Part shown: piece after piece, positions 3,901 through 54,501 of the stretch | Numbering within the stretch: position 1 is the first letter of the stretch | How the letters are laid out: each line of letters begins with the position of its first letter | From: a virus | Reading direction: 5' to 3' (one strand) | Length of the DNA stretch: 64,000 bases | Virus record (IMG/VR): IMGVR_UViG_3300027509_000013 | Location: 1-64,000 of that record | Notes under the pieces: model-generated | Seen by the model: only the letters and a program-made list of their open reading frames with translations | The model's database searches: none | Told to the model about the DNA's origin: nothing | Made by a program: the position numbers and the translations under genes

Positions 3901-6900
3901 TGCGATATGGTAATAACAGTGGATACATAGTTGAGCATGATGGAAATCATTATGTAGAAACACTTGATGGAGATCTACAGTTAATAGAGTCAGGTTCGAG
4001 CGAAACTTCTGCATCAGAGCTTGGTATAACAGGTATTCAGGGAGCATCTACAAGGACAGCAGACATAGGTAGAGCAAAGAGTAAGGTTAAGAATACAGTA
4101 AATGGAGTAGTAGGAGTATTTGAGGGAGATGGAAGTAAGGGAACTGTAGAGATTGGTGGACAGAACTATGATTTTGTTAAAGGAAAGTATGATCCAACAA
4201 CTAAGTCAGCGGTTGTAACTGTAACTCGTAATGGTAAGAAAACAAATGTGAAAGGTGAAGATGCTTTAAGTATTCTTCAAGATCAAGCAGCACATAAATT
4301 AGGTAAATCACGTAAAAATATAACAGCAGATGACGTCAAGAGAACAGCGAGTGAAATCAATAAAGAGCCGGGGATTAGCGAGCCTAAACCCAGAGGTAAG
4401 GTTGGAACTCGGAAAGTACAGCAAAGCGGATCAGATAGAGATAATGCAGGCAATGATGGAACCGAATCAGGAGCCGAACCCGGAAGAGACGGAGATACTG
4501 GGGCAACCGACACAGACAACGAGCCTGGAGCAGACGGAGAAGGAACTGGCACAACAAATGCAGCCGACGTCAACAGCGGAGCCGCAGACGGTAGTGCCAA
4601 GCAGTCAGGAGATACCAGACCCGCAGGTGAAGGAAGCACAAGCGAGCCTACACGACCAAGCAGCAGCAGAAAGGGACATGGCTTCACAAAATCAGAACCT
4701 TACAGAGCCATCAACGGAAAGTCCTATTACTATGAAGGAGGAAAGTGGAGAGGCGCAACCTCTGGAAGAGCCCTCAGCGACGCCAAATCAGCCGAGTTAA
4801 CAGCAGAGATTGGTAAAAGGATAATCTCACAAGCTACTTTGCATCTTAATAGTCAAAATATCTTTGCAGGAAGTCAGATAATTACAGACTTTTTGAACAG
4901 TGAAATAACTGTAGGAGAAGATATTATTGAGCAATTCATTAAGGAGCAAAACCCTGAGTTGTATAAGATGCTTTTGGGATACCGTGATCATATTAGGGAG
5001 TCAGGAGTAAAGATAGTTGGATATGATAATACAGCTGACTTTCAGGCAGCTACTGGTCAAGCTAATCCTAATCCAGATATTACAGCAAATACGAATGTAA
5101 ATTCTGATACTTCAACAGATGTAAATATAATTAGTACTCCAAGTGCAGAGATTATTTCTGAGCTACAGAAACTAGGGACTGTAGAAGAGAAGTTAAACTG
5201 GTTAAAAGATAAAGGGTTATTAGAGCCAATGGTCGTTAATGGCCAAGAGTTTAATGGAGCTGAATGGGAGAGCAGGAAGATAGTAATGATGAAGATAGGA
5301 AATGTTAGCATTCCATTTTACATCAGTACAGGAAAGGGAGGAAAGAAGGATGTTGCGAAACATAAGTGGTATCCAGTATTTGGAATCGGGCAAGAAGGTT
5401 GGTTAAATAAAGGTTCTACTGCTGAAATAAACGAATATTACAAGAGTCCAGTATTTGCTAAATTTGCCAAGATATTAAATGAAGGAGTAGGCAATGCTGA
5501 TTTTAGAGGTGATAATGATACAGGTAGAATTAAGGATGGAATAGCTTTTATAGAAGATACTAATTTTGCTCCTGTTAATGATGCAATGAATATTGAGAGC
5601 ACTCCTGCTAAAAGTAATAAAGATGTTCAGGGCTTTTATGATCATGCATCGAATGTACTTAATGCTGTTACTGACGAATTAAAAGCAATTGAATTAAGTC
5701 AATCTCAAAAGGCACAGACAGCTAATAACATAGCTTCAAGAACAGAAGGAGACCGGGATGCAGGATTATCTTTAGGATTTACAGATGCTAATAATCCAAA
5801 TGCTGAGGGAGATGTTTTTGAATCTAAAGTAGAAGATAGTGACCCAAGTAATCCTGCCAATCAGTTAAGTTTCTTTGATGAGAATGGCGACCCGATAGTA
5901 TTTGCAGCTGAGAGCAAAGGAGAACCATATGTAGACCCAGACCTAGTACCTGATGAACAAAGAGTACAGACACAATGGAATGAGAGTAAGAACATACAAT
6001 TCACAGGAACAACTAAGGTTAAAGATGCTTCTGATGTGGCACACATCTTCAGACTGCTCGAAAACAAGGCAGTAGAGCAAGCCTATGTAGTTCACGTTGA
6101 TAGTGAAGGTAATTCTCATATTCAGCATATGTCTATGGGTGGAGTTGCAGGAACTGTAGTCGACCCTAAATTGATAGTGGCAGGAGTATCTAAATTCAAG
6201 TCAGAGAAAGTCTATTTAATTCATAATCATCCATCAGGTAATTTAGAGCCAAGTCAAGCAGATTTCAACATAACAGCTAAGGTTAGAAATGGTCTAAGGC
6301 CATTAGGTATTCCTGTGGAGCATGTCATAATGGACACCTATAAGCAGGAGTATACTGTTATCGATCAAAACAATGAAGCTAGTTTTGAAAAAAGGTCAAA
6401 GAAGGATTATAGTGATGTTCCGTTGCAGACCTTTACTATGGACGAGCAAAGTGTAGATCCGACAGTGCTTGGTCAGAAAATATCTGCATCAAACGATGTA
6501 GCAAAGTTCTTTCAAAACAATAGATTTACGGCAAGACCAAAAGGTGGTGTGTTGATATTAGATCGTAAAAACACTATTGTAGGTCATTTTGCTCATCCGG
6601 ATGGGATTAGTGACTTAAAGCCATTATTAGATCAAATGGCTGCTGTTAATGGGAGTGGTATCATTACTTATGGTAACACTAGAAGGTACCAGAGGATTAC
6701 AGCTCCGAATATGCAGAAGACATTCGATGATTTAGATTATAAGTATTTAGATGATGTTACTTTCAAGTCAGAAGGCTCTGATATTGAAGGATATCTTAGT
6801 GCAGCTGAGGAGGGACTGTCTCTTAATGAGCAGCACGAAAAGTATGGCACTGATCCGATATCTAATTCTGAGGTAAATGAACCAAGTGATAGTCCACAAC

Positions 6901-22475: not shown

Positions 22476-23978
22476 ATGTTGAGACCAGACTTATTTAGGA
22501 ATAATGTAGTTGAAAAGTTAATCCCAAGGGATTACCAGGAAGTGTCTGTTCGTAGTATAATTGACTATATAAAGTCTGCTACTACTTTTGATAAGAAAAG
22601 AGGCGTATATGTAGGTCCGGTAGCGTGTGGAAAAAGTTTCATAATAGCATTAGCGGCATTAGAGTTGGGAGAGCCAATATTGGTATTGCAGCCGAGTAAG
22701 GAATTGCTTGGTCAGAATTACGAGAAGTATACTGATGCAGGAGGTGTAGCGACTATATTCAGTGCTAGTATGAAAATGAAAGTATTGAGCTCTAATACCT
22801 ATGCAACTCTAGGGTCAATTAAAAATCAAGCCGCTAAACTTAAAAAATTAGGAGTAAGATATGTATTCATAGATGAATGTCATAAAGGTTATAGTCCTGA
22901 AGAGAAAGGAGTAGCTAGAATATTTTTGGAAGCATTAGATCCAACTTGTGTCGTTGGATTCACTGCGACACCAGTGAGATTAGAGTATGAAAAGAAAAAT
23001 GGTTTGCAGAAAAGCGGTATGCAGATTAAATTCATTACAAGTACTAATCCTACTTTATTTAATGATGTCATTCATATTGTTCAGATATCTGAAATCAAAC
23101 AATACTGGCCAGATATCTCTCTTTATGAATTTGACTTTGACGAATCAGCCCTAGTAACGACTAAAGATGGTACAGACTTCACAGATAAGAGTGCGTCGGA
23201 AGCAGTTGAGAAGAATAAAGTAAATCGAAATATTTGCATGCATTTGAAGTCAATTTCTAAAGAGAGGAAATCAACTTTAGTTTTTGTAGATAGTGTAGCT
23301 TCTGCTCATAAGTTTAGTAAATGGTGTAACGAATCATTAGGACTTAACACAGCAGTTGTTTATGGTGGAATGAATCTTGATCTAAGGAGTGATATTGTTG
23401 AAGAATTTAAGAACTTAGAAATTGATGTTATTTTCAATTTCGGTACATTAACTACTGGTTTCGATCACCCTGAATTGGATTGTGTTGTATTAGGTCGGCC
23501 AATGAATTCTTATAGTGACTTTTATCAAATGATAGGTAGAGGATTAAGAATTCATATAGAAAAAGAGAATTGCATGGTACTTGATTTCTGTAATAACTTT
23601 AGAAGAATGGGAGATGTAAGAAAAATGGAGATACTACATGTGCCTTACTGGGGATGGGCTATATTTGTTGGAGGAAAGCTATTGACTGATATTCCAATTA
23701 AAGGACCAAAACTTACTTTAGAACAAACTATAGTTTTAGGAAAGACTAGAGAATATAATTTGAAGAAACCTCGAATTGGATTTGGGCAGTATACAGAATG
23801 TGGATATGAAAAACTTGTAGAAGATCCGGGTTACTTGAGGTACTTACTGCCAAAAATAGAAGCTAAAATTGCAGAGGAAGGAAAGAAGATACCAAAGAAA
23901 TACATAAGATTTGTAGAAATGGGAAAATTTATTTTAAATATAGAAAAAGAATTAAAAAATGTTCGAAAAGCAGCCTAA
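22476..23978 (+). CDS. SF2 DNA/RNA helicase (DECH box)
   Basis: Motif I is GPVACGKS, motif II is IDECHKG, motif III region is FTATP, and the second RecA domain has STLVFVD, TLTTGFDHP and QMIGRGLR (motif VI). This is a complete SF2 helicase of the UvsW/SSL2-like type (500 aa). It would remodel forks or recombination intermediates. The ATG follows the polymerase stop with no gap, and its 3' end overlaps the chaperonin start by 20 bp. Confidence 0.85.
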   Translation: MLRPDLFRNNVVEKLIPRDYQEVSVRSIIDYIKSATTFDKKRGVYVGPVACGKSFIIALAALELGEPILVLQPSKELLGQNYEKYTDAGGVATIFSASMKMKVLSSNTYATLGSIKNQAAKLKKLGVRYVFIDECHKGYSPEEKGVARIFLEALDPTCVVGFTATPVRLEYEKKNGLQKSGMQIKFITSTNPTLFNDVIHIVQISEIKQYWPDISLYEFDFDESALVTTKDGTDFTDKSASEAVEKNKVNRNICMHLKSISKERKSTLVFVDSVASAHKFSKWCNESLGLNTAVVYGGMNLDLRSDIVEEFKNLEIDVIFNFGTLTTGFDHPELDCVVLGRPMNSYSDFYQMIGRGLRIHIEKENCMVLDFCNNFRRMGDVRKMEILHVPYWGWAIFVGGKLLTDIPIKGPKLTLEQTIVLGKTREYNLKKPRIGFGQYTECGYEKLVEDPGYLRYLLPKIEAKIAEEGKKIPKKYIRFVEMGKFILNIEKELKNVRKAA

Positions 23979-25560
23979 CAAACAGCAAGAGAAAGTACCA
24001 CCACAACCTAGAGGTGGTGCTAAAATTCCACCTACAGAGACTGAGAGTATAATTAGTCAGGCTATAGAAGTGGTTGAAAAAGTATTTGACACACTTGGTC
24101 CAAATGGAAAGAGAGTAGTTTATCAGAGTGCCGAAGGGATCGGCGCGAGTAAGGATGGTGTGACCATTTTAAAACATCTCTGGCATTACGATGAGAATGT
24201 AGACAATGCAATTGAATTGATCCGTCAAGGAAGTGAAAAGACTCTCCAAGAGGAAGGTGATGGAACAACAACAACAGCAATGTTAGCTTGTATCCTTTAT
24301 GGAATAATCACAGACAAAGCATTCGCGGAAATTCCACATCACCAGAAAGTGAAAATTGTAGAGGATTCTGAAAAAGCGATTCTGGAAGAACTTGAAGTAA
24401 TGATGCTTCCATGTGATACTGAAGAAGCATTAATCAAGATTGCTACCATCTCAGCAAATAATGATGCTGAAATAGGACAGCACATAGGATCTCTAGTCTC
24501 TAAGTACAGAGAGAATTCATTTATGATGATCAATAAGGGACGAAATCCAAAGACCATTGTAGAAGAAATGAAGGGAGTCTATTTAGATTGTTCTATTCAC
24601 AGTGATTACTTTTTAGATGATGGGCCTGCAATTAATAGGCCTCAGTCAGTATTATTGATGCTGAATGAAGCTGTTGGGTCAAGTAAAGGAATCATTGAAG
24701 ATTGTGCCGAGTATTGTATAGATAGAGGGATTAAGAGTATGATACTAATGTGTGAGTCAGTAGAGCCGACAATCTTAGAAGTATTTAAGGAATATGCTCA
24801 AACTGGATTTGACATAGTTCCAATCGGGCTACCTGATCATGGTGAGTTAAGACACCAAAAAATGGAGGATCTAGCTAGTGTAACTGGTGGAACCTACTTT
24901 CGAAGTGGAAAAGGAAAAAGCACTGATCCTGCGGATTGCTTAGGTGAAATAGCATATGCTAAGATATTGAAGTACGAAGTAGTATTGTCATTACTCGATT
25001 CAGCAGTTCCTAAAGTAAAATCAAGGACAAAGTATCTCAATGAGAAACTTGCAGAAATAGAAAAGTCAGATATTGTAAATAGAGATTTTGCAATAGATAA
25101 CATGAAGGAAAGAATCTCTTTAATCAATTCTAGTACTTGTACAATCATCGTAGGAGGACGAACTCCTGCGGAAGTAAGCGAGAAGTACGATCGGTATGAT
25201 GATGCCAAGAGAGCGACTATTAGTGCGCTGCAAAACGGTTTAGTGGTAACTTCATCTCAGGCATTGCATCAAGTGTCAGATGAATTAATCCTAAGAAAAG
25301 GGAATTCTGATTTGGAAGATGCTATTTATAATGCTCTAATAAAGCCATTTGAGTATGTCACAAAGGATTTATATGTAGAGTTTAGACCATTGAAAGGAGA
25401 AGCTTTGAATATTATTACAGATACATTAGGAGAACCACTAGAGGTAGGTGCAATCGATCCGTATGCTGTTGTGAGAAGTTGTGTTAAAAATGGATTTAGT
25501 GTAGCAAAAATGTTGATGAGTATTTCATCATTTGTGAAATTAAAGCCACATAGGAGGTAA
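23959..25560 (+). CDS. GroEL-like group I chaperonin (phage encoded)
   Basis: The equatorial domain is recognisable: DTLGPNGKRVV, SKDGVTI and EEGDGTTTTAMLA near residue 100 match the ATP-binding signatures of Hsp60/GroEL (TLGPKG, KDGV, GDGTTT). Near the C terminus, YDDAKRATISALQNGL keeps the Asp that corresponds to the ATP-hydrolysis residue D398 of GroEL, and GAIDPYAVVRS matches the GVIDPxKVxR segment. The usual GGG segment after it is replaced by VTSSQAL. The length (533 aa) is normal, with a proline-rich N-terminal extension of ~25 residues. No GroES partner is seen here. It ends at a strong terminator. Confidence 0.85.
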   Translation: MFEKQPNKQQEKVPPQPRGGAKIPPTETESIISQAIEVVEKVFDTLGPNGKRVVYQSAEGIGASKDGVTILKHLWHYDENVDNAIELIRQGSEKTLQEEGDGTTTTAMLACILYGIITDKAFAEIPHHQKVKIVEDSEKAILEELEVMMLPCDTEEALIKIATISANNDAEIGQHIGSLVSKYRENSFMMINKGRNPKTIVEEMKGVYLDCSIHSDYFLDDGPAINRPQSVLLMLNEAVGSSKGIIEDCAEYCIDRGIKSMILMCESVEPTILEVFKEYAQTGFDIVPIGLPDHGELRHQKMEDLASVTGGTYFRSGKGKSTDPADCLGEIAYAKILKYEVVLSLLDSAVPKVKSRTKYLNEKLAEIEKSDIVNRDFAIDNMKERISLINSSTCTIIVGGRTPAEVSEKYDRYDDAKRATISALQNGLVVTSSQALHQVSDELILRKGNSDLEDAIYNALIKPFEYVTKDLYVEFRPLKGEALNIITDTLGEPLEVGAIDPYAVVRSCVKNGFSVAKMLMSISSFVKLKPHRR

Positions 25561-30074: not shown

Positions 30075-30308
30075 ATGGACTCTAAACTAGAAGAAGCAGT
30101 AGATCTCATTTTAGAAATGGGTTACTGCAGTGTATCAGCTATTCAAAGGAATTTAATGCTTGGTTATAATCGAGCATGTGGGATTATTGCTGAAATGGAA
30201 AAGCTAAAAATAGTTGGTCCGGCCAGAGGAACAAGACCTAGGGATGTGCTGATAGTAAGTAAAGACGAATTAGGTGAACTACCCACCCACGCCAGAGGCG
30301 ATGGGTGA
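30075..30308 (+). CDS. Free-standing FtsK-gamma-like winged-helix protein
   Basis: The whole protein (77 aa) matches the gamma domain of FtsK: EEAVDLILEMGYCSVSAIQ, LGYNRACGIIAEMEKLKIVG and TRPRDVLI follow the S-x-S-x2-Q-R ... IGYNRAA-x2-I-E-x-ME ... G-x-REVL pattern. In FtsK this domain reads the KOPS sequences and activates XerD. Here it is separate from any motor. The last ~17 residues are encoded by the end of the TnpB element (ELPTHARGDG), so the native C terminus was replaced on insertion, outside the winged helix. Confidence 0.75.
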   Translation: MDSKLEEAVDLILEMGYCSVSAIQRNLMLGYNRACGIIAEMEKLKIVGPARGTRPRDVLIVSKDELGELPTHARGDG

Positions 30309-30420
30309 GGCTTCAGGAGTCATCACTCCAACTAACGTCGGCAGTTCGTCCTGATTTTCAGTATCTATCCCAGACACCGTTTTATTTAAAGCAAAAGATT
30401 TAATATTTATGGCAGCATTA
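30279..30420 (-). ncRNA. Candidate omega RNA scaffold at the TnpB 3' end
   Basis: By analogy with studied IS200/IS605 elements, the RNA covers the end of tnpB and the right-end hairpin, and its guide is the flanking sequence beyond the element, here inside the FtsK-gamma-like gene. The 5' boundary is a guess. Confidence 0.4.
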
Positions 30421-31451
30421 ACATCACGATCAAGAACAGTAGAGCAACTGTTACAAGTCCACTCTCTATCCGAAAGTTGGAGGTCGTTGTTTATGCTACC
30501 ACAATTTGAGCACGTTTTACTTGAAGGAGCAAATCGACCTATGCGAAGAATATTATTCCCATACCATTCGGCTTTATATTCAAGCATATTCACAAAAGTA
30601 GACCAACTGGCGTCGGTTATCGCTTGTGCTAAGTTGTGGTTCTTAACCATATTTTTTACTGCAAGAGTTTCTAAAGCTATCGTTTGGTTCTCACGAATTA
30701 ACTTAGTCGAAACTTTGTGTAAAAAATCTTTTCTTTTATTTACTACATCTTCATGGAGTTTGGCAAGGCGTAGCCTTGACCTCTTTCCTTTATGTTTTGA
30801 ATACCTACGTTGTGCAAATCTTAATCTAGATTGCGCTTTACGTAAATACGTAGGGTTTTCAAATACTTGGCCATCTGAAGTGATAGCAAAATCTTTAATT
30901 CCAAGATCAATACCTATTGTAGATTCAGATTTTACTTTAGATTTGGCAGGAATCGATTCACCAGTATCGCAGAGGATAGAAGCAAAATACTTACCAGTAG
31001 GAGTTACACTAATAACAGCACTTTTAATTAATCCTTTGGTTGGTCTATGTAGAATTATCTTAATACCTTTCTTTCCAAACTTAGGTATAATCAATCGGTC
31101 TTTTTTTATTTTTAGATACTGCGGTACAGCAAATGATCCTCGATTGGACTTCTTTTTGAATTTAGGAAATCCTTCACCTTTAAAGAACCTTTTAAAAGCA
31201 ATATCCATATTTTGGATTGATTGTCCTAAAGATTGCGAGTTTACTTCTTTTAGAAATTCAAATTCTTTCTTTAAATCTGGGAACTGCTTAATTAAATCGA
31301 ATGCAGATAAATTCACTTTATTTCCTAAGTATGCAGAATTCTTAGTCTCTAAAGCTAGATTATACACTAATCTACAACATCCAATATGTTTATGGATGAG
31401 AACCTTTTGAGATTCAGTAGGATATATTCTGTATTTGAAAGATTTATACAT
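30279..31451 (-). CDS. tnpB: TnpB RNA-guided nuclease (IS200/IS605 family)
   Basis: Full length (390 aa). The RuvC residues are present: D in GIDLGIKDFA, E in IALETLAVKNM, and D in LDRDVNAAIN. The four-Cys zinc ribbon (CSNCG ... CNSCS) lies between the last two. TnpB is a DNA nuclease programmed by an RNA made from the 3' end of its own gene (established for the family). The last ~30 codons, after the zinc ribbon, run through the predicted RNA scaffold. No TnpA is present. It is opposite in direction to the surrounding genes and sits between the FtsK-gamma-like gene and the tmRNA. Confidence 0.9.
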   Translation of the reverse strand: MYKSFKYRIYPTESQKVLIHKHIGCCRLVYNLALETKNSAYLGNKVNLSAFDLIKQFPDLKKEFEFLKEVNSQSLGQSIQNMDIAFKRFFKGEGFPKFKKKSNRGSFAVPQYLKIKKDRLIIPKFGKKGIKIILHRPTKGLIKSAVISVTPTGKYFASILCDTGESIPAKSKVKSESTIGIDLGIKDFAITSDGQVFENPTYLRKAQSRLRFAQRRYSKHKGKRSRLRLAKLHEDVVNKRKDFLHKVSTKLIRENQTIALETLAVKNMVKNHNLAQAITDASWSTFVNMLEYKAEWYGNNILRIGRFAPSSKTCSNCGSINNDLQLSDREWTCNSCSTVLDRDVNAAINIKSFALNKTVSGIDTENQDELPTLVGVMTPEASPIASGVGG

Positions 31452-31518: not shown

Positions 31519-31555
31519 AAAAGGAGTCGTGTAATAAATAAAAAGTTTATATTTG
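31519..31555 (+). promoter_or_regulatory. Promoter of the tmRNA gene
   Basis: TATATTTG at 31548-31555 with an upstream AATAAATAAA tract; the tmRNA 5' end lies 9 nt downstream, a good fit to a -7 box. Confidence 0.75.
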
Positions 31556-31563
31556 TAATATAT

Positions 31564-31937
31564 GGGGGCGAATTGAATCGACTGGAAGCAGTTGGGTGTT
31601 GGTCGTAGCAAGATGGAAACTATCTGTAAAAGTTTCAAACCTTAATTGGAAACGATTATACAAACTCAAGCAAGGATCTCCAGGAGGTTGTTGCAAGTGA
31701 GGCAGATTTCGCGATAGCTGATCTGTTAGAAGGTACTGGCGTTGCCTCTTCATTCGTGAAGGAAAATGCACAGTTGGAGTTAGTCTAACCAAACATCCTG
31801 CATCGGGAGAAATAATAGATGATGGTGGAGCTGCCATTGGCAGCCTTTAGAGGAAAGCTTTATACAAACCTATGCTACTAAAAAGACTGATATTAAACGC
31901 TTAGCAGGACCTCGGGTCGTACCGAGCGCTTCCACGA
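31564..31937 (+). ncRNA. ssrA: tmRNA (trans-translation RNA)
   Basis: The 5' end GGGGGCG (31564-31570) pairs with CGCTTCC (31927-31933) in a 7-bp acceptor stem that keeps the G3-U70 pair required for alanine charging. The 5' domain has GAATCGACTGG, matching the conserved tmRNA GGATTCGAC-GG. The 3' domain has GGAC, then a T arm CTCGG/CCGAG with an unusual 6-nt loop. CCA is not encoded after A73. Length ~371 nt is normal. A tag frame starts around GGA at 31648 (position +85, as expected) but runs 46 codons to TAA at 31786-31788 (begins GNDYTNSSKD, ends AQLELV) and lacks the usual short ...LAA ending. It has its own promoter and terminator. Confidence 0.9.
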
Positions 31938-31938
31938 A

Positions 31939-31967
31939 GCACTCTTTAGCAAATAGCTAGAGAGTGC
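31939..31967 (+). terminator. Terminator of the tmRNA gene
   Basis: GCACTCTTTAGC (31939-31950) pairs with GCTAGAGAGTGC (31956-31967) through 12 bp, closing on a 5-nt loop. The following sequence is only moderately T-rich. Confidence 0.6.
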
Positions 31968-31994: not shown

Positions 31995-32228
31995 ATGCCA
32001 AAAAAAATGGGTAAAAAAACATCTTATGGTAAAGATGTAAAAGGAGCTGAGAAGAGAGGAACAGGAGGTGGAGCGAGAAGAAAGATTGCATCTTTAATGA
32101 AGAAAGGATGGACACAATCTAAAATCGGTAAAAGAGTCGGTAGATCAGCTAGTACTATCTCTCAAATTCACACAGGAGCAATTCAGGATGTACCTGCAGG
32201 TCTCGCTGCTAAGCTAAGAAAGATTTAA
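31995..32228 (+). CDS. Small basic helix-turn-helix protein
   Basis: The first 30 residues are K/G/R-rich and disordered. Residues ~30-75 form an HTH (SLMKKGWTQSKIGKRVGRSASTISQI). It would bind DNA and may be a phage regulator. A 14-bp inverted repeat lies 20 nt after the stop and could be its operator (inference). Leader TTAATTAAATCATATTATT precedes the ATG. Confidence 0.7.
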   Translation: MPKKMGKKTSYGKDVKGAEKRGTGGGARRKIASLMKKGWTQSKIGKRVGRSASTISQIHTGAIQDVPAGLAAKLRKI

Positions 32229-34583: not shown

Positions 34584-34850
34584 ATGAAATACTTAAAATC
34601 AATATCCACAAAAGCGATTATCTGTTATCTATTGTTATCTATAGTATCCTGCTCAAATGTTTGTTTAAACCCCGACTGCCGTTTTGAGCAATTGGAAGCC
34701 CCAATTACATTGACATCTAAAAGCTTCAATACAATAATCCTGACGGACAGCAATGGTAAAATATGGCAATCATCAACGGGCTGGAATATTGCTCAAAACA
34801 TTCTAACAGATGGATATCAAATCGGAGATACAATAGGATATTATAGATAA
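34584..34850 (+). CDS. Small predicted lipoprotein (88 aa)
   Basis: A signal peptide with K residues, a hydrophobic core and a lipobox (LLLSIVSC) ends at Cys 23. The mature part is ~65 aa with a further Cys pair. It would be anchored in a membrane of the infected cell, where superinfection exclusion is one possible role (inference). Confidence 0.65.
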   Translation: MKYLKSISTKAIICYLLLSIVSCSNVCLNPDCRFEQLEAPITLTSKSFNTIILTDSNGKIWQSSTGWNIAQNILTDGYQIGDTIGYYR

Positions 34851-34964
34851 TGGGCGTCGCGTATGCGACTGTTTGAATTGCGTCATACGCGTAATTATCC
34901 TCTGCGGTCACGCTGCGACGCCCATTATCCACCACAACAGGTCATCAGACCGTGGTGGATAATG
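34847..34964 (+). repeat. Structured direct repeat, copy 1 (118 nt)
   Basis: Nearly identical to 35651-35766. It folds as a 14-bp stem (ATAATGGGCGTCGC / GCGACGCCCATTAT) enclosing GCGTATGCGAC / GCGTCATACGC arms, followed by a second 12-bp stem ATTATCCACCAC / GTGGTGGATAAT. The middle ATTAT is shared by both stems. It starts in the last codons of the lipoprotein gene. Confidence 0.85.
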
Positions 34965-35603: not shown

Positions 35604-35655
35604 ATTATACAGAGTCCTATGGGTGGGCTTTGTGTAGTGCTGGATTCTGTATAAT
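35604..35655 (+). repeat. Hairpin element abutting repeat copy 2
   Basis: ATTATACAGAGTCC (35604-35617) pairs with GGATTCTGTATAAT (35642-35655) with one G-T pair. Its 3' arm shares ATAAT with the 5' arm of repeat copy 2. Confidence 0.7.
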
Positions 35656-35766
35656 GGGCGTCGCGTATGCGACTGTTTGAATTGCGTCATACGCGTAATT
35701 ATCCTCTGCGGTCACGCTGCGACGCCCATTATCCACCACGCGGTCATCAGACCGTGGTGGATAATG
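35651..35766 (+). repeat. Structured direct repeat, copy 2 (116 nt)
   Basis: Identical to copy 1 except for a 2-nt length change in the loop of the second stem (ACAACAGG versus ACGCGG). Stem arms: 35651-35664 with 35719-35732, then 35728-35739 with 35754-35765. Confidence 0.85.
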
Positions 35767-51018: not shown

Positions 51019-51591
51019 TTATCTTAATCCTATTCTGTTTTCGACCACATCAATTAATAGTATTATCTGATGATTAACAAATAGAACTGCTGCCAATACA
51101 TATAAAAAAGGATCAGCTATAAAGCTATTATCAACTGCTCCTAATCTACAAATAAAACATACAAAAGCAAATATTAAAGATATTGCAAAGTATTCATCAA
51201 ACTTTTTTGCTACGTGTCTTATATTCAAAAGAGCTGTACGAATGAAAGGTAATTTCTCAGGAGCAACTGGGCTACTCTTAATTTCTTTAGACTCATCATA
51301 GAAAGAGCTGTCTGCTACGCCTCTTATCTGTACATTATAACATCTAGATATTCCATCTACAAGTTCATCAAATAGAAATTGGTTGTTATTTTCTATCCCA
51401 TATATCTTAGCTGATGTATCCTTGAAGAAATCTCTATAAGTGTATGGTTTGGGTATTTTCAATCCTATTTCTAGAGCCTGCATCTTAATTCTATCTGGGT
51501 CGCGGCATACAATTGGGATTTGCCCTTTCCATGAGAGAATTATTAATGATCTTGTCTTTCCTGATCTTGGTTTACCTATGAATGCTTTCAT
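51019..51591 (-). CDS. P-loop protein with C-terminal membrane segments
   Basis: The N terminus begins with a Walker A (GKPRSGKT); QFLFDE at ~70 could be Walker B. The C-terminal ~60 residues hold two hydrophobic segments (FAISLIFAFVCFICRLG, PFLYVLAAVLFVNHQIILL). The start overlaps the kinase stop by one base, so it belongs to the vWA/PP2C/kinase operon. It may be the membrane effector of that module (inference). Confidence 0.6.
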   Translation of the reverse strand: MKAFIGKPRSGKTRSLIILSWKGQIPIVCRDPDRIKMQALEIGLKIPKPYTYRDFFKDTSAKIYGIENNNQFLFDELVDGISRCYNVQIRGVADSSFYDESKEIKSSPVAPEKLPFIRTALLNIRHVAKKFDEYFAISLIFAFVCFICRLGAVDNSFIADPFLYVLAAVLFVNHQIILLIDVVENRIGLR

Positions 51592-53114
51592 TATTTTGTA
51601 TTTATTAAATAGATGCTATCGTGATTAACTAAAAGGATTCCTCCTGTGCTAAAATGCAAACTACTATGTGAGTTACATTTAGGGCACTCTATCTCTGAAA
51701 CTACTTGCATATCTTTGATTCTGTAAACTATTATTTTACCGTCTGCAGGCTCAAATACAAAATCTTTGTTCATACATGATGATTTAAATTCATCAATTTC
51801 TAACTTTTTCTTTCCACCTCCTTTAAGTTCGAAGTAGGCATATTTTATTTCGGTTCCTTCTTTGTATTTGAATACAGCCATTGATCCAAACGTCTTTGCG
51901 TCAAGTATTCTAAATCCATATTCAAAAGATGCTAGATTATCATTTACATTAGAAAACACAAAAGAAGTCTTAGATGTATTAAAAATCATACCTGATCCAA
52001 ATGTCAATGCTTTCCTAAAGATATCCCTAGATCTCCTATATAGTATTCTATTGCCGGATTTATTTAAGGTGTAAATGTTCATTTTGTCACCTATAACTTC
52101 TATAAGGTTCGATCCAGTTTTGTGTTGAAATATAGCTAAAGGCATTTCTTTATTTGTGAATATTTTCTTATCAGAAAAATATCTCCCCTTACCAATTTCT
52201 TCAACCCAACGAACTCCTTTTATTTCAAAAACATTGCCATTAACTTGAAATCTATTCCCGTTAAAATGAAAGTCTATAATGTCACCTGTATAAACTAATT
52301 TTTCATGTATTTTATCAGATGATAGATCAATCTTAACAACTGGGGCCATTACAACCTTAGATAATGAAGGAAAAACTCTTAATCCTTCTTCCATTATTTT
52401 AAAGTAAATATCTTTTTGGTGACCGGTAAATTCTCTGTATGATTTGTGTATTTTAAGACCTGCATTTTTTCTCATTACAGAGAATTTATCAATCATTCTG
52501 TTTTTCAGTTTATCAGCACCTTTATAATTAGGATGCTGACCCTTATATGGGTGAGTATGAGTCATTGCTTCAAACATAATAATTGACAATGCAAACCAAT
52601 CTGATTCTTTCGATACTTTAGCGTTGTAATACCAATCAGTGATTTCGGGCTGCAAAACTTGGTTATGTCTGCCTCCTGGTGTTTGATATGAGGCTGTATC
52701 AATGAATCTTATCTCTTTTCCGTTAGTAAGTATGTTCTCAGGATTTAAGTCGCCTATAACGAATCCTATGTTGTGAGCTTCTTGAACTAACGAACTTACT
52801 TTCTCGAGCAGTATTACTTTCTGTTTATCTGATATTTTCTTTTTAGTGCAGAAAGATTGGTATTTAAGTCCAGAAATAGGATAGTAGCTTTGATCTACAT
52901 AATCCATTGTATGACCAATTATAACTCCTGATTTGTCAATCGTATCAAGTGGCTTAATGAATTCAGAAGGTAGTTTCCTAAAATCATTGATAGTTGTTTT
53001 TAGATGAGCACATCTTTTAGGGTCGTGATATATCTTAGCTACTAAGCTAGGATTGTTTGCTACTTCATAGATTGTTCCTTCCCCACCTCCGTTGATTTCT
53101 TTGCCTAATTGCAT
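51591..53114 (-). CDS. Ser/Thr protein kinase with C-terminal beta-rich and Cys-pair region
   Basis: Kinase motifs: glycine loop GGGEGT at 9-14, K27 in LVAKIY, catalytic loop IGDLNPENIL (HRD replaced by IGD, with Asp and Asn kept), FIDTASY as the DFG equivalent, and a helix-F-like SDWFALSIIMFEAM. The C-terminal ~250 residues are beta-rich, possibly a propeller, with a CPKCNSH pair close to the end. With the vWA and PP2C genes upstream it makes the TerY-P triad (vWA, PP2C, kinase) known from stress and conflict systems. Overlaps PP2C by 10 nt. Confidence 0.8.
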   Translation of the reverse strand: MQLGKEINGGGEGTIYEVANNPSLVAKIYHDPKRCAHLKTTINDFRKLPSEFIKPLDTIDKSGVIIGHTMDYVDQSYYPISGLKYQSFCTKKKISDKQKVILLEKVSSLVQEAHNIGFVIGDLNPENILTNGKEIRFIDTASYQTPGGRHNQVLQPEITDWYYNAKVSKESDWFALSIIMFEAMTHTHPYKGQHPNYKGADKLKNRMIDKFSVMRKNAGLKIHKSYREFTGHQKDIYFKIMEEGLRVFPSLSKVVMAPVVKIDLSSDKIHEKLVYTGDIIDFHFNGNRFQVNGNVFEIKGVRWVEEIGKGRYFSDKKIFTNKEMPLAIFQHKTGSNLIEVIGDKMNIYTLNKSGNRILYRRSRDIFRKALTFGSGMIFNTSKTSFVFSNVNDNLASFEYGFRILDAKTFGSMAVFKYKEGTEIKYAYFELKGGGKKKLEIDEFKSSCMNKDFVFEPADGKIIVYRIKDMQVVSEIECPKCNSHSSLHFSTGGILLVNHDSIYLINTK

Positions 53115-53812
53115 TGGTAAATTATTAATGAAATATCGTCTTGATTAATTATCTTTTCGTAACCTGGGAATATTCCCTTGCTCAGCATTTTCAACTTGCG
53201 ACTAAGGCAGGTTTTGTTTTCATTCCTCCATCTGTCATTGATAAACAATTCAGATAGATTAAATTTCTCGGTATTACTTCTAAATGATTCTAGTCCATCC
53301 GTACTTAAAGCAACTTGATCTGTATACGCGAATAAATCAATGGTTAGAGATTCTTTAAAATCATTCCAGTCCTGATATTGAGAAATATACTTAGGTTGAT
53401 TGTTTTGATCAATTGATACTATATTGTGATCGATAGCATATATCCCATCTCCTGAGAAGACTACTATAGCATTCTTTGTATATTTATCTATTACGCATAT
53501 TCCAATTGTTGCTTCCAATTCATTTTTCTCTAGAGATAAATTTTTTCTGTATATTCTTAGATCTTCAAATAACTCTCTCATTATATAAAGAGCTTCTTCC
53601 TTTGGCTGTTTTAAAAAGATACCCATGTTCTTTTTGTCAATGAGTATCTTTTTGAACATCTTTTTGAATAGACCTGATGCGAATGCGCTGTCAAGTCCTC
53701 CGCTGCACCCATCTGAGACGAATAAATAAAGATAGCGTTCCGTATCAGATACGTACTGGCTATCTTCATTCGTCTTATGAGTGGAACCTATTTTACTGAG
53801 TTCCTTAATCAT
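53105..53812 (-). CDS. PP2C-family protein phosphatase
   Basis: Motifs in order: KTNEDSQ, LFVSDGCSGG (metal-binding D-G), ATIGICVID, GDGIYAI, LSTDGLESF and QDDISLIIY, the full metal-site set of a PP2C fold. 235 aa. It would reverse the neighbouring kinase. One-base overlap with the vWA gene (TAATG). Confidence 0.8.
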   Translation of the reverse strand: MIKELSKIGSTHKTNEDSQYVSDTERYLYLFVSDGCSGGLDSAFASGLFKKMFKKILIDKKNMGIFLKQPKEEALYIMRELFEDLRIYRKNLSLEKNELEATIGICVIDKYTKNAIVVFSGDGIYAIDHNIVSIDQNNQPKYISQYQDWNDFKESLTIDLFAYTDQVALSTDGLESFRSNTEKFNLSELFINDRWRNENKTCLSRKLKMLSKGIFPGYEKIINQDDISLIIYQCN

Positions 53813-54501
53813 TAGAATGTAACATTTGCGATGTTCGCGGTACTTCCAGACGATACTGACTGAGAAGCAACTGTAATCATTCCTCTGATCTTCTTTCCGA
53901 TTGGAGTTGGATCACTTGGGTCATCTACAGCCACTTTAGTGATTCCCATCTGTTGTGCTGCACCTTTGAAGTAAGATGGGTCATTAAGACCAAATAATAC
54001 TAAGTCAAAGTTTCCGAAATTCTCTTCATTTGAGTAAATCTCATCTAGCTTCTTTTTTACATCAGAAGGATTTTTAGATGAACTATTGTCATCTCCATCA
54101 GTGAAGACGAAAATCATTACTTTACAATCAGCACCAGAGCTTACGATACTTTCGTAGTAGCTTCTACTGTTTTCAAGAGCTGTGTAAACTCCATCATACA
54201 ATGCAGTCATTCCTCTTGGACTTACATCAATATGATCTACTGAAGCAATTGGAGTGAATCCATGAACTACTTCTACTGAAGAATCAAAATCAACTCTTGA
54301 ATACATTATTTTGTCTGAATGATGAGATCCTTTCCACTCTTTAAGAGTTTCAGACATTGCATCATTCATATCATTGACATAATTAGAGATAGAACCACTT
54401 CTATCTATGACGAATGTTACTAACATTACATCATCTACCTGAATGTCATCAGGGTTAAAATTAGGCTTCCCAAAGGATACGCCAAAATCTAAACTTTCCA
54501 T
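53812..54501 (-). CDS. vWA-domain protein (TerY-like)
   Basis: The MIDAS motif is complete: DRSGS near residue 32, MTALYD and FTDGDDN. The domain spans ~25-200 with a small S/G tail. TerY proteins of this kind sit with a PP2C phosphatase and kinase and are likely phosphorylation targets or scaffolds (family knowledge). First gene of the four-gene coupled operon. Confidence 0.8.
   Translation of the reverse strand: MESLDFGVSFGKPNFNPDDIQVDDVMLVTFVIDRSGSISNYVNDMNDAMSETLKEWKGSHHSDKIMYSRVDFDSSVEVVHGFTPIASVDHIDVSPRGMTALYDGVYTALENSRSYYESIVSSGADCKVMIFVFTDGDDNSSSKNPSDVKKKLDEIYSNEENFGNFDLVLFGLNDPSYFKGAAQQMGITKVAVDDPSDPTPIGKKIRGMITVASQSVSSGSTANIANVTF

Follow-up and report, generated by a model that had tools for sequence, protein, structure and literature searches.

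tmRNA genes as such are already known in phages: mycobacteriophages and Bacillus phage G have been listed among the carriers, and the RNA of phage DS6A, which consists of a tRNA-like domain (TLD) only, is thought to titrate SmpB (PMC4131195). In phage Calle "20 tRNAs and one tmRNA" were recorded, with no discussion of the tag (PMC8776804). Tags that comprise 28-46 residues and show gene-like codon usage, found here across several phage groups including cultured phages, appear to be undescribed in the open-access literature that was searched.

The window studied here consists of bases 1-64000 of the 131,999-base IMG/VR virus record IMGVR_UViG_3300027509_000013. The terminase of this phage matches those of Crassvirales and of related Flavobacterium and Cellulophaga phages, and the best match, which is its closest TerL relative, is Cellulophaga phage phi14:2 (26% identity). 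As judged from the sequence, this is a Bacteroidota phage related to Crassvirales, and positions 31564-31937 (+) are its tmRNA gene. We propose, with a probability of about 0.72, that this one-piece tmRNA performs trans-translation with a selected tag of 46 residues, which is likely an extended degradation signal.

Identity and anatomy of the tmRNA gene

The tRNA-like domain alone was covered by a descriptor consisting of a 7-bp P1, TCGAC at a fixed offset, GGAC, a 5-bp T stem with a loop of 6-7 nt and a discriminator A, with the parts 230-480 nt apart. On both strands of the 131,999-base record it has exactly one match, at 31564-31934, which also carries the alanine identity pair G3.U70, and it has none in 200 dinucleotide-shuffled genomes. 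P1, P2 and the T arm all form in the unconstrained MFE fold of the bare sequence (z -2.56). The unique match, the fold and the terminator bear out the original prediction of a phage tmRNA; the tRNA-like part that it called sound has every element as described, and there is no anticodon arm. The features are as follows.

31548..31555, +: TATATTTG, putative Bacteroidota -7-type box, proposed from sequence only, 8 nt upstream of the RNA 5' end
31564..31937, +: phage tmRNA gene (ssrA)
31564..31570, +: acceptor stem P1, 5' strand GGGGGCG, pairing with CGCTTCC at 31927-31933 and including G3.U70
31575..31582, +: D-loop-like motif GAATCGAC, common to the phage tmRNAs L050 and L052
31595..31609, +: P2 5' strand GGTGTTGGTC-GTAGC, pairing with 31885-31894 and 31874-31878
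31611..31636, +: PK1-like pseudoknot, the best knot of the region and at the expected place
31640..31650, +: resume site CCTTAATT/GGA (the slash precedes the resume codon), matching bacterial tmRNAs L042 and L013
31648..31785, +: tag frame of 46 codons, GNDYTNSSKDLQEVVASEADFAIADLLEGTGVASSFVKENAQLELV, with gene-like codon usage
31786..31788, +: stop codon TAA of the tag, read from the sequence
31824..31846, +: GGTGGAGCTGCCATTGGCAGCCT, start of a putative PK4-like element, or hairpin
31874..31894, +: P2 3' strand GCTAC...GACTGATATT, in which CCTATGCT..TAAA is common to L052
31907..31926, +: GGAC (31907-31910) and T arm CTCGG-GTCGTA-CCGAG with a 6-nt loop
31927..31937, +: acceptor 3' strand CGCTTCC, discriminator A73, then CGA; CCA is not encoded
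31939..31967, +: terminator hairpin GCACTCTTTAGC-AAATA-GCTAGAGAGTGC with a U-rich tail

Upstream, TATATTTG is presumably a -7-type box (consensus TAnnTTTG), and no clear -33 box accompanies it. P2 comprises 15 pairs in two blocks, all standard and many of them G-U, and it is present in the MFE fold. The PK1-like knot combines S1 (AGAT 31611-31614 with ATCT 31622-31625) and S2 (GAAACT 31616-31621 with AGTTTC 31631-31636) with the linker GTAAA, and a knot as good is given by 13 of 60 shuffles. The GGTGGA motif of the PK4-like element is also present in the tmRNAs of L052, phi40:1, FpV4 and Bacillus phage G. The T loop GTCGTA is atypical and without the usual A58; its length of 6 nt had been noted correctly, but it is not unique, since the phage tmRNA L165/L177 (TCCGC TTCGAT GCGGA) has one as well. 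The terminator hairpin is 12 bp long (-19.8 kcal/mol, z -6.1). Between the stop codon and the RNA end there are 152 nt, compared with 234-249 nt in three bacterial tmRNAs. Since the standard total length of 374 nt is kept with only these 152 nt after the stop, the tag frame seems to sit where bacterial tmRNAs have helix 5, PK2 and PK3. In tmRNAs generally, PK2-PK4 tolerate replacement better than PK1 does.

The locus is situated between tnpB (30279-31451, -) and a small HTH gene (31995-32228, +). That the RNA is not a tmRNA at all, and either resembles one by chance or serves as guide RNA of the adjacent tnpB, is suggested by this neighbour and by the search tools: ARAGORN does not report the window tmRNA, and neither does the covariance model proposed as a check (Rfam RF00023), in which it stays below the gathering cut-off and is missing even at E<=10, whereas its relatives L052, phi40:1, FpV4, L219 and L220 do exceed the cut-off. 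However, chance resemblance is difficult to reconcile with the absence of the descriptor from the shuffled genomes and with the presence of the resume site and terminator, and the RNA lies upstream of the tnpB start on the opposite strand, while the omega RNAs described so far are at the tnpB 3' end. Both forms of this explanation are extremely improbable.

Two different IS605-type tnpB genes were observed, the one immediately upstream of the tmRNA and another at L008:4204-5361 (+), and no tnpA was seen in the ORF lists that were read. The phage has 18 tRNA genes according to ARAGORN and 19 matches according to Rfam, at 71-81 kb; in addition, an unusually long tRNA-family match of 118 bases at L007:14782-14899 (-), given by Rfam and not by ARAGORN, is possibly an intron-bearing or odd tRNA. 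The window also encodes a GroEL-like chaperonin, Cpn60 (23959-25560, +), about 26% identical to its counterparts in Flavobacterium and Maribacter phages. Adjoining protein kinase-like, PP2C phosphatase and VWA genes (51591-54501, -; Pfam) resemble a TerY-P-type triad, with the kinase match slightly below the Pfam cut-off. A REP-like element of 96 nt with inverted ends ATAATGGGCGTCGC...GCGACGCCCATTAT is present in two copies (97%) at 34840-34935 and 35644-35739 in this phage of 36% GC.

Close relatives were sought in viral contigs. DNA patterns of the 5' half, searched for exactly, had no match there. With the 1814-aa structural protein, the MCP and the TerL as queries, only one contig was obtained; it is 35 kb long, its MCP and TerL are identical to those of the window phage, and it does not carry this tmRNA. 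A DNA match to Flavobacterium FCL-2 was rejected as a relative; it covers only an AT-rich promoter-like stretch.

Resume site and tag frame

Bacteroidota tmRNAs were gathered with RF00023, which matched 145 of 148 genomes. The resume context is AGTTTAATT/GGC GAA AAT in Porphyromonas gulae (L013) and CTTTAATT/GGC GAA TAC GAT TAC GCT in the bacterial tmRNA L042, and in the window it is CCTTAATT/GGA AAC GAT TAT ACA, with the core CTTAATT/GGA. The window context is of the same Bacteroidota type, and therefore the resume codon is taken to be GGA at 31648, which is RNA position 85. The two bacterial contexts agree with the original prediction of resumption at +85, in the same frame, with 46 codons up to TAA.

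From GGA (31648-31650) the tag runs without an ATG to a stop at RNA position 223. By comparison, in each of the 28 bacterial Bacteroidota tmRNAs that were parsed the tag is about 9-10 aa long and ends in LAA or MAA, and their stops lie at RNA positions +117 to +132. In the other two frames the stop comes after 22 and after 16 codons, and, as had been predicted, none ends in ALAA; the window tag itself ends in LELV, a short frame with an ALAA-like end being a usual and not universal feature of tmRNAs. It is the codon usage that makes the 46-codon frame significant; the length of the opening gives P = 0.047 when judged alone. The codon-usage score of the frame is 12.8-13.1, the 50th percentile of the phage's own genes, compared with 12.5-12.9 in real gene segments and -13 in non-coding open frames, and 1.1-1.5% of the non-coding open frames of the same length reach it. 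The remaining five frames over the tag score from -5 to -28. The antisense ORF 31547-31837 was rejected, the antisense frames there scoring -11 to -28. On this sequence evidence a chance opening is unlikely.

Searches with the tag peptide among phages and in PHROGs, in Pfam (where the best E, 0.024, is below the cut-off) and in PDB gave no match. An AlphaFold model of the tag alone is mostly helical, with weak, low-confidence support (pLDDT 66).

The coding-like frame also bears on the proposal that the RNA is a decoy, in which the tRNA-like domain would titrate SmpB and block trans-translation in the host, as proposed for DS6A (PMC4131195). On the one hand, this domain is the best preserved part of the RNA, and no SmpB gene was found in the window phage or in the related phage records searched. 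On the other hand, both the resume site and the coding-like frame are kept, though a decoy needs neither, and we regard the proposal as very unlikely.

Long tags in other phage tmRNAs

If one groups those tmRNAs in which the frame starting at the resume codon has 28 codons or more and a gene-like codon usage, the window tmRNA belongs to this group together with six other phage tmRNAs with tags of 28-43 aa, three from isolates (phi40:1, phi14:2 and FpV4) and three metagenomic (L052, L219 and L220). The comparison with related phages that had been suggested thus shows that long coding-like tags recur. The length had been called abnormal, which holds for 46 codons against the bacterial 9-10 or so; however, at least six other phage tmRNAs also have long tags, so the window tmRNA is not a one-off abnormality.

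L052 (IMGVR_UViG_3300007633_000010; Rfam 81.8 bits) was found by a pattern scan of IMG/VR and has a tag of 43 codons ending in LAEAA; a scan with the 3' motif AACCTATGCTRYTAAA gave 103 matches, of which L052 alone passed as a tmRNA bearing the motif. BLAST with L052 led to the Cellulophaga Callevirus tmRNAs of phi40:1, phi38:1 and Calle_1. The phi40:1 tmRNA (Rfam 87.6 bits) has the 30 aa tag GNNTNAVNAQIEANMEAVNAILNLEVAVGV with the Callevirus end VAVGV; ARAGORN begins the Callevirus tag 8 codons after the resume motif in the same frame, the 30 aa being counted from the motif. The RF00023 search of isolated Bacteroidota phages yielded FpV4 (58.2 bits; 35 aa tag ending in VAVAA), whose tmRNA type is carried by 29 Flavobacterium phage records, and phi14:2 (46 bits against a cut-off of 47), the tag of which is 38 aa long, GNDTDNTQLKANMTVVHNILNGSDALIGSSVQKLAMVA, and ends in LAMVA. 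A survey of 48 further virus records added L219 (104 bits; 34 aa, ending in LLAA) and L220 (80 bits; 28 aa, ending in AMAA), the latter in a phage record of 416 kb. Genes of this kind are overlooked or wrongly framed by standard tools, and the tmRNAs of phi14:2 and of the FpV4 group are unannotated.

FpV4 (L198) 81947-82361, -: tmRNA, without such an annotation in public records
phi14:2 (L200) 4031-4502, +: tmRNA, not annotated as such; hypothetical proteins are annotated over it

The codon test was repeated for each phage against its own genes. The fraction of non-coding open frames that reach the tag score is 0.000 in L052, 0.008 in phi40:1, 0.016 in FpV4, 0.038 in phi14:2 and 0.051 in L220, so that it is at most 5.1% in five of the six, and it is weaker in L219 (0.136). 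Three tags, those of phi40:1, FpV4 and phi14:2, are homologous to one another (z 7.1, 5.1 and 3.3), and in 15 aligned codons of phi40:1 and FpV4 nine of the 14 nucleotide differences are at third positions. Jointly, the seven frame lengths exceed those of shuffles with a Fisher P of 7e-4, which is optimistic because the seven RNAs were partly chosen for length. The similarity between the window tag and the other long tags is only suggestive (best p 0.055).

These results have to be weighed against the possibility that a real tmRNA has lost its short-tag stop, the extension being neutral read-through into structural RNA of a molecule that may be decaying. The P of 0.047 for length alone, the lack of ALAA in any frame, the degenerate 6-nt T loop and the absence of a clear relative of the window tag are all consistent with such a loss. 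Nevertheless, the frame has the codon usage of the phage's own genes, and likewise in most other long-tag phage tmRNAs, three of the tags are homologous, and the acceptor stem and terminator are intact. We regard a lost stop as an unlikely explanation.

The ends LLAA, AMAA, VAVAA, LAMVA and LAEAA belong to five of the seven long tags, and V-ending tags are present only in the window (LELV, the most divergent end among them) and in Callevirus (VAVGV). Other phage tmRNAs have short tags, including GKTTLALAA (L050), GNRSLAMAA (L165), GTFNSAPALAA (L167/L173), AERTSAFALAA (L218) and that of Bacillus phage G, AKLNITNNELQVA. Permuted tmRNA genes of gut crAss-like phages (L214, L215, L216, L181, L184 and L185) encode GN...DYT tags of 13-14 aa. 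A mycobacteriophage Bxz1 tag considered for comparison gave no tblastn match and was left out of the analysis.

Possible function and comparison with known systems

What would such a tmRNA do for the phage? The G3.U70 acceptor stem would direct alanylation, and host SmpB would bind the RNA. It would then enter ribosomes stalled on broken mRNAs and accept the nascent chain on its alanine, after which the ribosome would resume at GGA (31648), append the 46-residue tag and stop at TAA. The mRNA-like frame has probably expanded into the space of helix 5, PK2 and PK3, so that PK1, a single PK4-like element and the tRNA-like domain remain. The tag would be a selected peptide, probably largely helical as modelled at low confidence; most likely it still serves as an extended degradation signal, with a hydrophobic C-terminus placed after a spacer or helix. 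Together with the tRNA genes elsewhere in the genome, which form a cluster of about 20, the tmRNA could make up one translation kit, and it would allow ribosomes to be recycled while mRNA is cut during infection.

The original prediction was that a tag without a ClpXP degron could mark proteins for another fate. As stated, this is not supported, as five of the seven long tags keep LAA/AMAA/MVA-like ends, and it is for this reason that an extended degradation tag is the likelier function; thus the interpretation is partly supported, while the observation on which it was based is confirmed. The LELV and VAVGV ends, which are unlike LAA, may still leave room for a fate other than degradation. A long tag acting as a degron-free functional peptide in targeting, inhibition or sequestration would also be in line with the long helix-prone middle, but hydrophobic C-termini fit proteolysis and there is no sequence match to known domains, so we consider it improbable. 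A broader idea, somewhat speculative and on balance doubtful, is that the Bacteroidota phage tmRNA appends to every rescued protein a dedicated functional peptide, and not merely a longer degron, which binds a phage or host receptor or adaptor and so redirects the products from ClpXP or switches the protease. With such long tags, proteomics of infected cells could directly address what a phage gains from a tmRNA of its own.

Compared with the bacterial tmRNAs of Bacteroidota (RF00023; L013 and L042), the window RNA has the same G3.U70 acceptor stem, TCGAC-type motif, P2, PK1 position, TTAATT/GG resume site, T arm and length of about 350-405 nt. It differs in having a tag of 46 codons instead of about 9-10, no LAA or MAA end, the frame in the PK2/PK3 space and a 6-nt T loop, and in being missed by Rfam.

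Among the phage tmRNAs, those of Callevirus (phi40:1, phi38:1 and Calle_1) share with the window the length class, the extended coding-like tag and the V-ending C-terminus, whereas their PK1 region (CAGAGAGATAACTG...) is different, their T loop has the canonical 7 nt and they are detected by Rfam. The tmRNAs of the FpV4 group and phi14:2 likewise have a long tag that starts with GN and has gene-like codon usage; however, their tags end in VAVAA and LAMVA, and their 5' region is nearer to Callevirus than to the window. L052 shares GAATCGAC, TTAATT/GG, the long tag (43 codons), GTGGTGGAG (GGTGGAG) and the 3' motif CCTATGCT..TAAA, and differs in its LAEAA tag end, its canonical T loop and its 81.8 bits in Rfam. 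The permuted crAss-like tmRNAs (cr114_1, cr125_1, cr60_1, cr10_1, cr124_1 and cr52_1) differ in their permuted gene and in tags of just 13-14 aa, but they too belong to Crassvirales, and their tags resemble that of the window in the GN start and in DYT (GNVNNIVDYTNVA compared with GNDYTN).
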